From assembly GCA_009786455.1 (NCBI GenBank), contig WQTD01000017.1, positions 1-55,221 of the forward strand: a stretch of 55,221 nt of DNA, read 5' to 3'. A program made the translations under genes and the position numbers. This document shows, one piece after another, positions 5,645 to 18,904 of the stretch. The DNA is from Treponema sp. GTDB taxonomy: Bacteria; Spirochaetota; Spirochaetia; Treponematales; Breznakiellaceae. Each line of letters begins with the position of its first letter. Position 1 is the first letter of the stretch. The notes under the pieces were generated by a model. That model did no database searches and had not been told where the DNA came from. It was given only the letters and a program-made list of their open reading frames with translations.

Positions 5645-7000
5645 TTAAATATTGCGTGAAAAAAAATCATGTATAACTTCAATAATGCGGTCAGTCATTT
5701 CATCCGTCATGCCGGGGTATACGCCGACCCAGAATGAATTATTCAGCACGCGGTCGGTATTTTCCAGTGTACCTGATATTCTGTAACCTGTTCCATTTTT
5801 TCGCATTTCATCAAAACACGGGTGCTTGACAATGTTACCTGCAAAAAGCGTTCTTGTCTGAATTTTATTATCCTCAATGTACCTTGTTAATTTATTTCTT
5901 GTTTTGGAGTTGCTCCCTTCCGGATTACAGGTAAGCATAAATCCAAACCAGCTTGGTTTTGAATTGGGGCAGGGCAGCGGAAGAATTAATTTTTCCGATA
6001 AATCCTTTAATCCGTTATAAAGACGCTGCCAGTTATAGCGCCTTCGTTCGACAAATGAAGAAAGTTTTTCAAGCTGCGCGCAGCCTATAGCAGCCTGTAA
6101 GTCAGTCACTTTTAAATTATATCCAAAATGACTGTAAACGTATTTATGATCATATCCTGAAGGCAGTTCGCCGTATTGTTTGTCAAAACGGCTGCCGCAC
6201 ATATTGTCTTTTCCGCCGGGACACACGCAGTCGCGCCCCCAGTCCCTCATTGATCTGATTATTTTATGAAGAAGCGAGTTGCCTGTATATACGGCTCCGC
6301 CTTCACCCATTGTTATGTGATGGGCCGGATAAAAACTGGATGTTCCTATATCGCCGATTGTCCCTGTATATTTTTCCTTTCCGTTAATGGTATATGACGC
6401 GCCAAGCGAATCGCAGTTGTCTTCGATCAGCCATAATTTATTTTTATTGCAGAATTCTTTAACCGCGTTTAAATCAAAAGGATTTCCAAGCGAGTGCGCA
6501 AGAAAGACAGCTTTTGTTTTTTTACTGAGTGCATTTTCAAGTAATTCAGGATCGATATTATACTGAGGTATTGTAATATCGATAAAAACGGGAATAGCGC
6601 CGTACTGCACGATTGGAGAAACTGTAGTCGGAAAAGCGGCTGCGACAGTAATGACCTCATCCCCTGGTTTTATTGCGCGATCTTCCAGAAGAGGAGAGGT
6701 CAGCGCCATGAATGCAAGCAGATTTGCCGATGAGCCTGAATTTACAAGAGAACAGTAATTACTGTTTATTTTTTCCGGAAAGACAGTTTCAAACTGTTCT
6801 GTATATCTTCCGGCTGTCAGCCAGAAATCAAGCGAGCTGTCTATAAGGTTTACAATTTCTGCCTTGTCAAAAACGCGGGAAGCGTAGGGAATACGCTGTT
6901 CAGCCGAACAAGGTTTTTGTTTATGAAAGATATCAGCATATTCTGCAGCCAATTTGAGGATATGTTCCCTTGCCTGTTGTTCGCTCATGTTTTCAAACAT
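5645..7000 (-). CDS. rfbH: RfbH/DdhC-like nucleotide-sugar 3-dehydrase
   Basis: A 451-residue member of the aminotransferase-fold sugar enzymes. The stretch S-F-Y-P-A-H-H-I-T-M-G-E-G-G (residues 222-235) has His227 where aminotransferases have the PLP-binding lysine. This swap is the hallmark of CDP-4-keto-6-deoxyglucose 3-dehydrase (E1), which uses PMP to remove the C-3 hydroxyl. A cluster of cysteines near 253-264 fits the iron-sulfur site of E1. E1 needs a reductase partner (DdhD/E3), which I do not see in the window. It lies 17 bases after the UXS-like gene, as the fourth gene of a cytidylyltransferase-dehydrogenase-decarboxylase-dehydrase series. The product is therefore a deoxy sugar, but its exact structure is open. 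Confidence 0.85.
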   Translation of the reverse strand: MFENMSEQQAREHILKLAAEYADIFHKQKPCSAEQRIPYASRVFDKAEIVNLIDSSLDFWLTAGRYTEQFETVFPEKINSNYCSLVNSGSSANLLAFMALTSPLLEDRAIKPGDEVITVAAAFPTTVSPIVQYGAIPVFIDITIPQYNIDPELLENALSKKTKAVFLAHSLGNPFDLNAVKEFCNKNKLWLIEDNCDSLGASYTINGKEKYTGTIGDIGTSSFYPAHHITMGEGGAVYTGNSLLHKIIRSMRDWGRDCVCPGGKDNMCGSRFDKQYGELPSGYDHKYVYSHFGYNLKVTDLQAAIGCAQLEKLSSFVERRRYNWQRLYNGLKDLSEKLILPLPCPNSKPSWFGFMLTCNPEGSNSKTRNKLTRYIEDNKIQTRTLFAGNIVKHPCFDEMRKNGTGYRISGTLENTDRVLNNSFWVGVYPGMTDEMTDRIIEVIHDFFSRNI

Positions 7001-13526: not shown

Positions 13527-14387
13527 TTATTCAGACAGGAGAAAAACATTTTCCTCAATGTTATTTATGAGGGCGTTTTTTGAGAATTCGCTTATATCAG
13601 TCTTGTTTTCCAGAAATGTTTTCCAGTTTTCAATAAAATCATGAGCCGTTTTTCTGTGTAATGGAAGTATTTTACCGTTTAATATGTCTTCTCCGTTCCT
13701 GTTTCGCAGGATTTTAGCGGTTTTATACACAATTCTGATGTCAGTTAATACGTTTTTTTGCGCTTTTGCCAGAAAAACCAGCACTTCACTGCTAAAAATA
13801 TCATTTCTGTAGAATTTTTTGTATATTGAATAGTCCCAATGATGCAAAGGCAGCCTGATTCGGGTCAATAATTCCTGATTTTGAAGATCAGTATGCTCAT
13901 CTGCGGAATGAAAGCGTGAAGCCGATACCCACCTGGTATTATGAGTGTTCCGCAGTTCATATTGGGCGTCAAGCGCAGTCAGAGGAGCGGGTAAATCGTA
14001 CATATGGGAAGTGGAACACAGATTTCCGCCGACAGTCGCAATATTTCTGACCTGAACGCCTGCGATATTATCCGCGCAGGTGCGTAAAATTTCAGGGACT
14101 ATTTTTCCAAGTCTTAAAATCCTGTTTATTTTTACCATCGCGCCGATTTCAAGATAATGTTCCGTTCTTGTTATCCTGTTTAGCTCTTCAAGATTATCAA
14201 GGCAAAGGACTACTCCGGGAAGATTGATGATATTGTTTCCCTGTTTCCTGATTAGATCGCTTCCTCCGGCAAATGGGACTGCTTTCGGAAAATGGTTCCA
14301 TACGGAGAACAGTTCATTGAACGACTCTGGGTAAAAAATCTGGTCAGGAAGCGTGTCCACACAGCCTCTTCTGCCTGAGATCGGCAA
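13527..14387 (-). CDS. Molybdenum hydroxylase FAD subunit (XdhB/CoxM type)
   Basis: FAD-binding domain of the xanthine dehydrogenase/CO dehydrogenase family: the V-P-F-A-G-G-S-D-L-I loop near residue 38 binds the pyrophosphate, and V-R-N-I-A-T-V-G-G-N-L-C-S is the second FAD signature. It passes electrons from the 2Fe-2S subunit to NAD or another acceptor. The frame starts at 14387, 44 bases inside the 2Fe-2S gene, but a GTG at 14360 just before the domain is also possible. At 286 residues it is of usual length. A 200-base gap follows before the Omp85-like gene. Confidence 0.85.
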   Translation of the reverse strand: MPISGRRGCVDTLPDQIFYPESFNELFSVWNHFPKAVPFAGGSDLIRKQGNNIINLPGVVLCLDNLEELNRITRTEHYLEIGAMVKINRILRLGKIVPEILRTCADNIAGVQVRNIATVGGNLCSTSHMYDLPAPLTALDAQYELRNTHNTRWVSASRFHSADEHTDLQNQELLTRIRLPLHHWDYSIYKKFYRNDIFSSEVLVFLAKAQKNVLTDIRIVYKTAKILRNRNGEDILNGKILPLHRKTAHDFIENWKTFLENKTDISEFSKNALINNIEENVFLLSE

Positions 14388-14829
14388 TTATATTTACGGC
14401 TTTTATGAGTCTTTCTGAATTTGTGCACCGGCATTTAATCCCTGAAAATCCCTTTAAAATCTCTTCCTTTGACGGAGCGCCGATATACGAAAGAAGAGCT
14501 TCCGTGCACAGGACTTTTCCAGCTTCGCAGTAGCCGCAATTTCCTGTATGCGCGTTAATGAATCCGTTCATTATTTCTTCATATTCGATTGTCTGTGAAA
14601 AACCCTCTATTGTGATTATTTCGCTGTTCTTGATTTTAAAAGCGGGAATCAGGCAGGCGGGACTTACCATACCGTTAAATAAAACCGAACAGGAGCCGCA
14701 TTGACCTGTCAGGCAGCCGGCTTTTGCGTTTAACAGTCCGAATTGTCCGCGTAAGATATCGATAAGCCTTATGCCGGCGCCGCAGCGGACAACTACATCT
14801 TCTCCGTTTAAAATAAAATTAATTGTCAT
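14344..14829 (-). CDS. Molybdenum hydroxylase 2Fe-2S subunit (XdhC/CoxS type)
   Basis: Two iron-sulfur sites are visible. The plant-type ferredoxin site has C39, C44, C47 and C59 (C-L-T-G-Q-C-G-S-C). The second, helical site has C98, C101, C133 and C135 (G-N-C-G-Y-C and K-C-R-C-T). The length of 161 residues is normal. It carries electrons from the molybdenum centre to FAD. The ATG overlaps the stop of the molybdopterin subunit by four bases, so the three subunits are translated together. Confidence 0.92.
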   Translation of the reverse strand: MTINFILNGEDVVVRCGAGIRLIDILRGQFGLLNAKAGCLTGQCGSCSVLFNGMVSPACLIPAFKIKNSEIITIEGFSQTIEYEEIMNGFINAHTGNCGYCEAGKVLCTEALLSYIGAPSKEEILKGFSGIKCRCTNSERLIKAVNIIADLRQKRLCGHAS

Positions 14830-16913
14830 TTAACGCCCGCCTGGGTTTCTGATCTTTTATGGCGTACCATTTCCCATATATCTTTTCTTTTTAAGGGGAT
14901 TGAAATAAAACTGTAATCCATTGCCTGGGAGACAGCCTGCATAAAAGCCGCAGGAACACATGTAAACGGAAGTTCTCCTATTCCCCTTGTTTCGCCGCTG
15001 TCGTCCGGAATAAAATCAATATGTATCGGCGGAATGTCGGCAGGGGAGGGTATTGAAAAATTGTAGTATTGATTTTCCGGCAGCGTTCCGTTTATATATT
15101 CGATATTTTCGGTATATGCCCAGCCTAGCGCCTGCGCCGCTCCTCGCGTAAGACTTCTCTTCGCCCTGTTAGCTGAAATGATCCTTCCGCCTGCGATTCC
15201 CATCCATACGCCGCGTATTTTGGGAATGCACTCTACGATGTCAATTGATACTTCGACAACAGCGCACGCATATCCCGGTTTTAAAAAAACGCCTGTATCC
15301 ATATACGCGGATGCAATAACGCCGTTTAAAAGGCTGCCGCTTGAAGGTTTGCTGCAGCGGCGAACAGTTAAAGGCAAAGGCGATTTTCCCTTCTGCTTTT
15401 TAATTGCAAGGCAGCATTTCTCTACAAGTTTTGTTACCGCCGTTATGTTACGTGAAGAGCAGGAAGGACCGCAATCAGGAGAGTTTTCAGTAATCAGGCG
15501 AATCATGCCTTGTTTCATTGGAATGATCTCCATAGCGGCTTTTTCCCAAATTTTTACGTAATCCTCTGAACTGCAAAGGCTTGTTCTTATTTCAAGAACG
15601 CCTTCTTTTGTCAGCGTCGCTTCAACATTACAGGAGCTTCTGTCATATAACATTCCGTTTCCCTGAAACCCGACGGCAATTCCAATTCCGCGCGGGTTTT
15701 CTCCTTTTTCCGGAATTCTTTCCCTGTAATTCTGACGCAATAACTCATATGATGTCCATTTCCTGTAATAATCACCGGATTTAGCTGTCAGATCGATCAA
15801 ATTATTAGTGTCGATTTGGTTTTTACACGTAATTATGTGATTTTTCCGCCATATCGCAGGATCTTGTTTAATCTTATCTGCAATTTGCGATACATGACGT
15901 TCAATCGCAAAGAATCCCTGCGAAAGCCCAAATCCGGAAAACGGTCCCTGCGGCGGGATATTTGAATTTACGGCATGCGCTTCTAATTTTAAATTGTCAA
16001 TCCGGTAATTTCCGATAACGCCAAGGCACATTAGATCAAGAATTTCATTATCATTAACCGAATGAGCGCCCATGTTGATGTTAATCAAAATTTCCGCTCC
16101 TGTAATATTCCCGTTGTTGTCAAAATTGCTTGTAATATCGATATTTGATTTGCAACGTTTCGGCGAATATTTAAAATCATCAACCCTGTTAAGAATGAGT
16201 CGGACAGGTTTTTTTGTAAGATATGTTCCAAGCGCGGCATGACATGCGATAAGCGACGGAAACCATAATTTTCCGTCCATGTGCAGGCTTAAAGCGGAAG
16301 GTTCCATGGAAATCATGGATTGATCCACAGCCAATACGCGGGACACGGAACGTTTTACATGATACGGCCATTGGGTCGCCGTTTTTACAACAAGCGTTTT
16401 ACCCGCCTGTTTTTTTTTATCTGATGTTTTGGAATACCACGTTATCGCTCCAGACGGTTCAGCGTACCATTGATCCTGAATTCCCGTTTCATAGCTGCAT
16501 GTAAATGTTTCCCCTGTTTTTTCACCGCAGTTTCCGATATTGATTTCCCTGACGATTCCGTTCGCATTATCTGCTCTGACGCCGTCAATCAAAAAAAACG
16601 GAATTTCTTCATCGGCGGCAACATTGATCATCGCCGCAAGTTCTTCTAGTTTTATTTTGTCAGGACCAAAAATAACGGCAACAGGTTCTCCCGCGTAGGA
16701 AAGTTTTCCGTCAGCAAGGACAGGCATGGCTGTTTCTTCGAATCTGTTTTCACCGGGAATATGCTTTGCCGTGACAACAGTGTAGTGATCCGGCAGTTTT
16801 GGCAGTACCAGATATTTCAAATAACCCTTTGCAACAGGGGATCTTATTGTAACTCCGTATAAAAGATTCTGCGGATAAATATCTTCCAGATAGACTGAAC
16901 TGTCTATTTGCAT
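14826..16913 (-). CDS. Molybdenum hydroxylase molybdopterin-binding subunit
   Basis: A 695-residue subunit of the xanthine dehydrogenase/aldehyde oxidase family with an a/b-hammerhead start and a C-terminal catalytic Glu647 in G-I-G-E-L-P-F-T. The segment that usually reads A-F-R-G-F-G-G-P-Q is here G-P-F-S-G-F-G-L-S-Q, losing the conserved arginine. The protein is somewhat shorter than typical members (about 750 residues or more). Substrate is therefore uncertain; xanthine is not assured. The gene overlaps the capD-like gene by ten bases (ATG inside its last codons), which ties this redox enzyme to the polysaccharide operon. Molybdenum cofactor genes are not present in the window. Confidence 0.8.
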   Translation of the reverse strand: MQIDSSVYLEDIYPQNLLYGVTIRSPVAKGYLKYLVLPKLPDHYTVVTAKHIPGENRFEETAMPVLADGKLSYAGEPVAVIFGPDKIKLEELAAMINVAADEEIPFFLIDGVRADNANGIVREINIGNCGEKTGETFTCSYETGIQDQWYAEPSGAITWYSKTSDKKKQAGKTLVVKTATQWPYHVKRSVSRVLAVDQSMISMEPSALSLHMDGKLWFPSLIACHAALGTYLTKKPVRLILNRVDDFKYSPKRCKSNIDITSNFDNNGNITGAEILININMGAHSVNDNEILDLMCLGVIGNYRIDNLKLEAHAVNSNIPPQGPFSGFGLSQGFFAIERHVSQIADKIKQDPAIWRKNHIITCKNQIDTNNLIDLTAKSGDYYRKWTSYELLRQNYRERIPEKGENPRGIGIAVGFQGNGMLYDRSSCNVEATLTKEGVLEIRTSLCSSEDYVKIWEKAAMEIIPMKQGMIRLITENSPDCGPSCSSRNITAVTKLVEKCCLAIKKQKGKSPLPLTVRRCSKPSSGSLLNGVIASAYMDTGVFLKPGYACAVVEVSIDIVECIPKIRGVWMGIAGGRIISANRAKRSLTRGAAQALGWAYTENIEYINGTLPENQYYNFSIPSPADIPPIHIDFIPDDSGETRGIGELPFTCVPAAFMQAVSQAMDYSFISIPLKRKDIWEMVRHKRSETQAGVK

Positions 16914-18361
16914 ATAACCTTGTATTTATGCAGTATGTCCTTGAGAAGCGCGGCGTTTCTGTAGTTCTGGGGGAGAGAAGGATCAAGACGGCAGACAGGA
17001 CGCAGTTCATCCAGAAGCTCCTGTACGTTAATCGCAAGAGGCGTCTTTCTGTTTATCTTAAGGATGCGGCTGTAATCTGTCAGGGAGGGCATTTCGTCGC
17101 CTGATAAAAGGGATTCGTCCAGGCGTTCTCCGGGACGAAGCCCTGTATACTCGATTTTTATTTCAGTTTCGGGTTCGTAGCCGTTAAAGCGAATCAGCTG
17201 TTCCGCAAGGTCGCGGATTTTTACAGGCTCTCCCATATCCAAAAGATAAAGACCGCCGTTTTCACCTACGCCGCCTGTTTTAAGAACAAGGGAACATGCT
17301 TCGCTGATTGTCATAAAATAGCGGCTCATGTCAGGATGGGTAATTGTAACAGGGCCGCCTTTTTCAATCTGCTGCTGGAAAAGAGGAACTATTGAACCGC
17401 GCGAACCAAGCACATTTCCAAAACGCACAACCGTGAAGCAGGAATTCCCCTTTACCCTTTCGCCAGCGGAAAGCACAATTTGTTCACAGATATATTTTGA
17501 CGTGCCGTATACTGAAACCGGTTGTACTGCCTTGTCGGTGGATATATGCACAAAACGCCTGACGCCGTTTTTAACAGCGGCATTGACAAGGTTTTCAGTT
17601 CCAAGAACATTGTTTTCGATAACCGCAACAGGATTTTCCTCCATCATTGGTACGTGCTTGTAGGCGGCAGTGTGGAAGATCGCTTCGGCTTTTAACTGTT
17701 TCAGAATATAATCAACATAATCGCTGTCTTTAAGTTCGCCGATTATCGGAACAAGAGTTGCTTTTTCGCCGACCCCCTCTTCCTGTAAAAGGCGCAGTTC
17801 CTTGTTAATCTGGTAAATTGAGTTTTCACCGTGCCCGAAGAGGTAAAGTCTTGCCGCTCCGCCTGATAAAAGCTGGCGGCACAACTCACTGCCGATAGAG
17901 CCGCCGGCTCCTGTTACAAGAACGCGCTTTCCCCGAAGGTAGGCAAGGCTTTCTTTCAGGTTGATAGTTACCGGTTTTCTGCCAAGCAAGTCTTGCAAAT
18001 CGATAGAGCGCATCTGTATAAGGTGCGCGTCTCCTTCGACAATTTGGGAAATTCCAGGCAGGATACGGATTTTCTGGAAATTAGCGTTTTTTAGGATTGT
18101 AAAAAGCTCTTTTAAAAGTTCCGTGCCGGCGCTCGGAATGGCAATTATCGCTTCATCCGCCGGATTGGTCTGCAGTAAAACAGAGGCGTCCTTAATAGGA
18201 CCCAAAATGGGAATATCGTCGTTCTTTTTTCCTATTTTTACAGGATCGTCATCCAAAAAAGCGACAACCTGTCCGAAAATACGTTTTTTCAGTATCTCTC
18301 TGGCAATTGTCTGCCCCGCAAATCCGGCTCCGATTATATATAAACGTTTTGACTTTTCCGT
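16904..18361 (-). CDS. CapD/FlaA1-type nucleotide-sugar dehydratase, apparently ACG start
   Basis: The soluble SDR core has T-G-A-G-G-S-I-G-S-E, the S-T-D-K-A segment and the catalytic V-Y-G-T-S-K. This matches UDP-GlcNAc 4,6-dehydratases of the CapD/WbjB/FlaA1 group, whose products feed surface-sugar synthesis. The first ATG, GTG or TTG codon in frame is a TTG at 18256. Upstream of it the same frame encodes L-Y-I-I-G-A-G-F-A-G-Q, a complete dinucleotide-binding motif that belongs to the family's N-terminal domain. The frame opens right after the TAG of the preceding gene. ACG at 18361-18359 has AGGAG seven bases upstream and is the best start candidate. No N-terminal membrane domain is present. 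Confidence 0.85.
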   Translation of the reverse strand, partial: TEKSKRLYIIGAGFAGQTIAREILKKRIFGQVVAFLDDDPVKIGKKNDDIPILGPIKDASVLLQTNPADEAIIAIPSAGTELLKELFTILKNANFQKIRILPGISQIVEGDAHLIQMRSIDLQDLLGRKPVTINLKESLAYLRGKRVLVTGAGGSIGSELCRQLLSGGAARLYLFGHGENSIYQINKELRLLQEEGVGEKATLVPIIGELKDSDYVDYILKQLKAEAIFHTAAYKHVPMMEENPVAVIENNVLGTENLVNAAVKNGVRRFVHISTDKAVQPVSVYGTSKYICEQIVLSAGERVKGNSCFTVVRFGNVLGSRGSIVPLFQQQIEKGGPVTITHPDMSRYFMTISEACSLVLKTGGVGENGGLYLLDMGEPVKIRDLAEQLIRFNGYEPETEIKIEYTGLRPGERLDESLLSGDEMPSLTDYSRILKINRKTPLAINVQELLDELRPVCRLDPSLPQNYRNAALLKDILHKYKVICK

Positions 18362-18364
18362 AAG

Positions 18365-18904
18365 CTATCTCCTGTTTTGAGCTCCCAGTGATTCAATTAC
18401 CTCAAAGGCCAGATCAACTGTAAATGAATCATTGTATAAATCAAGCTTGATTTTCGCTCTGCCTTTTCTCCTGTCAACCTTTACAATCTTTCCTTCAAGC
18501 CCCATTAAGGGACCTTCAGCAACAACAATACGGGCGTTTTCATTAAAGTATACCCTGGAAATTCCAGCAACGGGACCGTTATTTTTCAAAAAATGCATCA
18601 CTGTTTCCAGATCATGATCCGAAAGAGGGGTAATTTCCTGATTCGATTTTAGAAAACGGCAGAATCCTTCCGTACGCCTGAATTCCCATCGATATTTTGT
18701 TACTTCTTCATCATTATCTGCTTCTATAAATAAGTATCCGGGAAAAATAGCGGATAACGATTGTTTTACCTTTCCCTGTTTTCTGATATCAAGACGTCTT
18801 TGAGGGAAATATACAGGTAGATTGATGTCAGGGTGATGTGATTTTAACAGTTTGATGTACTTATTTTCCGAGCGGGTCTTTACCTGAATGGCGTAATAAT
18901 TCAT
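18365..18904 (-). CDS. NusG paralogue (LoaP/RfaH/UpxY type) processive antiterminator
   Basis: The 179-residue protein starts M-N-Y-Y-A-I-Q-V-K-T-R-S, the NGN-domain entry, with F-P-G-Y-L-F-I-E in the middle. A C-terminal KOW-like segment (V-V-A-E-G-P-L-M-G-L-E-G-K-I-V-K-V) completes the NusG layout. NusG paralogues that head polysaccharide or secondary-metabolite operons bind RNA polymerase and let it read through internal terminators; LoaP proteins are reported from Firmicutes and spirochaetes. I chose the ATG at 18904, because the frame upstream to 19156 has no domain. A TATAAT lies seven bases before this ATG and there is no ribosome binding site. It stops with TAG directly before the capD-like frame. 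Confidence 0.85.
   Translation of the reverse strand: MNYYAIQVKTRSENKYIKLLKSHHPDINLPVYFPQRRLDIRKQGKVKQSLSAIFPGYLFIEADNDEEVTKYRWEFRRTEGFCRFLKSNQEITPLSDHDLETVMHFLKNNGPVAGISRVYFNENARIVVAEGPLMGLEGKIVKVDRRKGRAKIKLDLYNDSFTVDLAFEVIESLGAQNRR

Follow-up and report, generated by a model that had tools for sequence, protein, structure and literature searches.

A probable ACG start codon for a capD-like gene at its junction with loaP in Treponema

Comparison of the window (the whole 55,221-nt stretch of DNA analyzed here) with related genomes indicates that a capD-like gene of Treponema sp. is very probably translated from an ACG codon (18359..18361, minus strand), located just behind the stop codon of loaP. 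The position of this start is strongly supported by its recurrence at the equivalent site in other genomes of the genus. We consider it likely that the codon is an inherited non-canonical start, placed at the loaP stop by a Shine-Dalgarno (SD) sequence in the loaP 3′ end, and that it keeps CapD low and tied to LoaP.

The loaP-capD junction in the window

The capD-like gene (16904..18361, minus strand) runs for 485 codons from the ACG to a TAG at 16906-16904. ATG, GTG and TTG are absent from its frame over 36 codons, from 18364 to 18257 on the minus strand, and the first canonical codon, TTG 18256, lies 35 codons past the ACG. On the same strand, loaP (18365..18904) ends with ...CAAAACAGGAGATAG, and its TAG (18367-18365), which stands 3 nt ahead of the ACG, is in phase with the capD-like frame. 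The frame between the TAG and capD is open and continues as CTT ACG GAA AAG TCA AAA CGT TTA TAT ATA ATC GGA GCC GGA TTT GCG GGG, encoding LYIIGAGFAG directly downstream of the ACG region. The SD sequence, AGGAG (18369..18373, minus strand), lies within the 3′ end of loaP, 7 nt ahead of ACG 18361, and its best anti-SD duplex reaches -7.1 kcal/mol. The original prediction, which was made from the window alone, had described the lack of a canonical codon between the loaP TAG and TTG 18256, the ACG seven bases past AGGAG (18373-18369), the in-phase TAG and the dinucleotide-binding motif, all of which were confirmed on the sequence; its proposal that the ACG is the start is now backed by eight loci with ACG at the equivalent place and a ninth with ATT. 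The codons ATA, GTA and CTT directly ahead of the ACG were also considered as starts and ruled out, since ACG alone is common to the loci. The pN/pS ratio of codons 2-36 is 0.188, vs 0.16-0.19 downstream, showing equal purifying selection, and from this constraint we conclude that translation covers the stretch preceding TTG 18256.

The capD-like protein matches Polysacc_synt_2 (PF02719, E 4e-112, 374.5 bits vs a cut-off of 20.2), and its closest solved structures are dehydratases of the WlaL/PglF type (WlaL chains, E 5e-81), which places it in the soluble UDP-sugar 4,6-dehydratase family. Like other members of the CapD/WbpM/PglF family, it combines an N-terminal Rossmann-like domain with a catalytic domain bearing a TDK motif; unlike typical members, it is 485 residues long and lacks the N-terminal membrane helices, because the frame opens with the Rossmann motif. 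The upstream product, called a NusG paralogue in the original prediction, can be specified as a LoaP-type antiterminator (NCBIfam NF033641 antiterm_LoaP, 149.8 bits vs a cut-off of 125; Pfam NusG, E 1e-14). We set its start at ATG 18904; translation could also begin at another in-frame ATG, 18925. Downstream of capD lie three hydroxylase-type genes for molybdopterin, 2Fe-2S and FAD-type subunits (14826-16913, 14344-14829 and 13527-14387), the first of which encodes a molybdopterin-binding large subunit resembling xanthine/aldehyde oxidoreductases (minus strand; MoCoBD_1, E 2e-35) and overlaps capD by 10 nt. The window and the six relatives read share the gene order loaP, capD and three hydroxylase-type genes whether capD starts with ACG or with ATG, so the operon as such gives no explanation for the start codon. 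As a separate observation, this xanthine dehydrogenase-type trio (13527-16913) follows loaP-capD within a polysaccharide gene cluster and is an unexpected companion for a sugar dehydratase.

Start codons of capD across the genus and beyond

A close capD orthologue is present in 32 of the 40 genus genomes. ACG occupies the start site in eight loci, namely in G000 (the same assembly as the window, with a contig matching the window sequence), G031, G003, G025, G014, G038, G005 and G024, in the last of which the start is one codon shorter. G007 has ATT at this site and G030 has GTG, and the remaining orthologues use ATG, at the aligned codon or a few codons upstream; G003 carries two capD loci, one with ACG and one, copy b, with a canonical start. 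This comparison had been proposed along with the original prediction, and it returned ATG at the site in most genus orthologues together with the eight cases of ACG. In the nine non-canonical loci, the stretch from the upstream in-frame stop to the Rossmann motif of the conserved N terminus contains no canonical codon, the non-canonical codon is kept in relatives, and the SD stands at proper spacing (duplexes of -3.8 to -10.5 kcal/mol over the eight ACG loci and the ATT locus), as in conserved non-canonical starts of the infC and sigR kind. The named close relatives are Treponema sp. metagenome assemblies, whose isolate codes suggest termite-gut species. Outside the genus, in other genera of the family and order, an in-frame ATG precedes the motif in every locus read, in a scan of 91 loci that counts among them 6 from this genus itself and some repeats; orthologues starting downstream of the NAD motif, which the original prediction had named as evidence against itself, were not what these loci showed.

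On the capD protein tree, the non-canonical starts require three changes, with G007 (ATT), G014, G038, G005 and G024 in one clade, G025, G031 and G003 in another, and G000 by itself, and a single clade of all nine loci was rejected (p-AU 0.0003). Identity at 4-fold sites between the non-canonical assemblies is 0.32-0.58, with synonymous sites near saturation, indicating that these assemblies have long been separated. That C rather than T persists here does not reach significance alone (5 of 50 comparable two-fold sites hold C in all seven genomes), and we therefore do not present it as proven that weakness is selected. Judged from the sampled DNA, the non-canonical start of capD is lineage-specific, recurrent and gene-specific.

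In seven of the ACG genomes (G031, G003, G025, G014, G038, G005 and G024), the loaP TAA overlaps the A of the ACG by 1 nt (TAACG, or UAACG in the mRNA), and in G007 the loaP stop overlaps the capD start in the third frame. Stop and start thus overlap in eight of the nine loci and lie at +3 nt in the window, with the SD inside the upstream gene, which is the arrangement of a termination-reinitiation pair. At the equivalent junction, TAATG is seen in canonical relatives, among them G034, G003 copy b and G016. Overall, a loaP stop overlapping the start or lying ≤3 nt from it was found in 9/9 non-canonical vs 8/24 canonical loci (Fisher p 0.0009, uncorrected for kinship), and the association is not significant inside a 21-row subclade (p 0.10); independent pairs are too few. 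From this spacing we infer that capD translation would be coupled to that of loaP. A conserved RNA helix covering the SD or the ACG was searched for around the start, and none was found.

Other genes and the initiation apparatus

Across 455 kb from G000 and 284 kb from the ACG relatives, capD was the only gene found to have an ACG preceded by an SD and followed by a coding signature ahead of the first canonical start, the surveys covering genome stretches that amount to ~20% of G000. Likewise, the signal at capD exceeds chance: among the 178 genes of a filtered ORF set that have an orthologue in another genome of the sampled DNA, homology extended clearly past the first canonical start for capD alone (5 capD loci), the other flags lying mostly a few codons ahead of an obvious ATG. 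The scan that picked up capD also yielded a DUF6941 gene (PF22091; L176:529-912 on G000 contig C1, plus strand), whose start aligns with ATT. The corresponding codon is ATT or ATC in 22 of 30 genus loci and ATG in the other 8, as against ATG, GTG or TTG in all 30 loci read from other genera. A canonical codon stands further upstream in frame in 6 of the 22, which weakens the case for those six. The stretch ahead of the gene in G000 appears intergenic, with no obvious upstream partner, suggesting that a weak start in this lineage can do without coupling. With capD and DUF6941, the lineage thus has two or more genes with weak starts, that of DUF6941 being the more widespread.

Two further observations were made in these surveys. 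On the reverse strand of L164 (G014 contig C5), around position 5700, a frame resembling a sugar-nucleotide epimerase runs for ~45 codons before any canonical start and has a CTG after AAAGGA, a possible CTG start known from this one frame. Two orthologous genes, one in L158 (position 1360 on the reverse strand) and one in L166 (position 3357, forward strand), show homology reaching an upstream in-frame TGA 19 codons before the first ATG; either the TGA could be recoded or the genes could have a longer frame.

The initiator tRNA stem-loop with a CAU anticodon was found in G000 and in most genomes, and none with CGU was found in the genus. A special initiator tRNA reading ACG was thus rejected, in that the 40 genus genomes contain no GGGCTCGTAACCC stem-loop, a search that a variant stem would escape. 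In all 30 genus genomes read (L196-L225), the infC gene, encoding IF3, has a TTG start preceded by GGAGGNCAG or a sequence close to it, which rules out IF3 autoregulation through a weak infC start. In the IF3 protein, alignment columns 33, 135 and 138 hold residues particular to the clade.

Reinitiation on the ACG and its alternatives

We propose that a ribosome terminating on loaP, or its 30S subunit, would already be at the capD start site, where it would pair with the SD in the loaP 3′ end, and that ordinary fMet-tRNA(CAU) would then initiate at the ACG in spite of the middle-base mismatch. Initiation at the mismatched codon would be made possible by the strong SD and chiefly by the overlap of stop and start, and CapD output would be low and linked to LoaP synthesis. 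The all-64-codon study in E. coli reportedly found ACG to be a very poor start in reporters, and the codon is probably a genuinely weak translation start here. In E. coli, an excess of IF3 lowers reinitiation (PMC2268962), and unrecycled 70S ribosomes that stay on the mRNA lead to initiation at non-canonical codons just past stops (earlier work summarized in PMC2268962). On this view, the ACG would be inefficient, coupled to loaP and sensitive to IF3. A bolder version, which we hold to be rather doubtful, is that ACG evolved repeatedly at one junction so that CapD is made only by ribosomes arriving from loaP; if true, the ACG mismatch would block independent initiation and the UAACG overlap would let reinitiating ribosomes bypass start-codon proofreading.

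It is possible, though less likely than not, that the ACG is instead tolerated, being slightly harmful or neutral, and that the loaP overlap and a good SD yield sufficient CapD, such that T-to-C changes drift in repeatedly with no regulatory meaning. The three changes on the tree, the use of ATG by species with an equal UAAUG junction and the two-fold-site test would all fit such drift. However, ACG or ATT has been kept across species with saturated synonymous sites, although one transition restores ATG, and an ACG start was seen neither in other sampled genes nor in capD outside the genus. A lineage-wide relaxation of start-codon choice, through a changed IF3, 16S rRNA or initiator tRNA and affecting several genes, appears unlikely: the genus-restricted ATT/ATC of DUF6941 and the clade-specific IF3 residues speak for it, but only two clear cases emerged among ~345 genes of G000, which otherwise use ATG, GTG or TTG, infC itself has TTG in the 30 genomes read, and the initiator anticodon is unchanged.

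Three other readings find little room in the comparative data. Read-through of the loaP stop, or a frameshift there, would yield the NusG-CapD fusion suggested in the original prediction, and the in-phase TAG and open intervening frame of the window agree with it; yet the loaP stop occurs in all three frames relative to capD (0 in G000, 1 in most, 2 in G007), so that among the nine loci it is in phase only in G000. These differing frames exclude a conserved LoaP-CapD fusion, and we judge this reading very improbable. Still less credible is a sequencing or assembly error, also raised at the outset as a T-to-C error, or a fresh disabling mutation. The window's genome is indeed a draft metagenome assembly (2.35 Mb, 85 contigs, 86% complete), but eight ACG loci from separate assemblies and one ATT at the start site lead us to reject error for the group, and the capD-like gene is intact and under purifying selection. 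In plant plastids, ACG is a codon edited to AUG, and C-to-U editing would restore AUG here as well; we know of no C-to-U mRNA editing in bacteria, the ATT of G007 could not be converted to AUG in this way, and we give this idea almost no weight.

The proposed inherited, weak ACG start resembles known systems. It is close to Streptomyces sigR, which has a GTC start repressed by IF3 (PMC5472188), in being a gene-specific non-canonical start kept across a genus with a strong SD, mis-annotated by gene finders and belonging to an overlapping gene pair; it differs in its codon, in that sigR occupies the upstream position in its pair, and in that IF3 control was shown experimentally there and is inferred for capD. 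In sigR (PMC5472188) and in Staphylococcus cvfC1 and ccpN (PMC13009471), expression is both low and regulated owing to conserved weak starts combined with strong SDs. Near-cognate starts occur in infC (AUU/AUA), cvfC1 (AUU) and ccpN (AUA) (PMC13009471). As in those genes and pcnB, a near-cognate start and an extended SD would keep expression low, and AUU is also the codon of G007 capD and of DUF6941, but their mismatch is at the third position rather than the second as in ACG, and infC of this genus has TTG. The pcnB gene of E. coli likewise has an AUU start. Termination-reinitiation systems with UAAUG/UGAUG or AUGA (PMC6728339, PMC12548453) share the one-base stop-start overlap and the SD in the upstream gene; they restart on AUG instead of ACG, and for capD the coupling is drawn from spacing. 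Few natural bacterial non-canonical starts are known, and nothing relevant on a bacterial ACG start was found in the literature searched.

A dependence of the CapD level on weak initiation is plausible. Gene finders limited to ATG, GTG and TTG would truncate such proteins, in the case of capD by 35 residues, with loss of the nucleotide-binding motif. The recurrent, gene-specific use of ACG at a stop-start overlap would offer a natural setting in which to ask if ribosomes that reinitiate evade proofreading by IF3.
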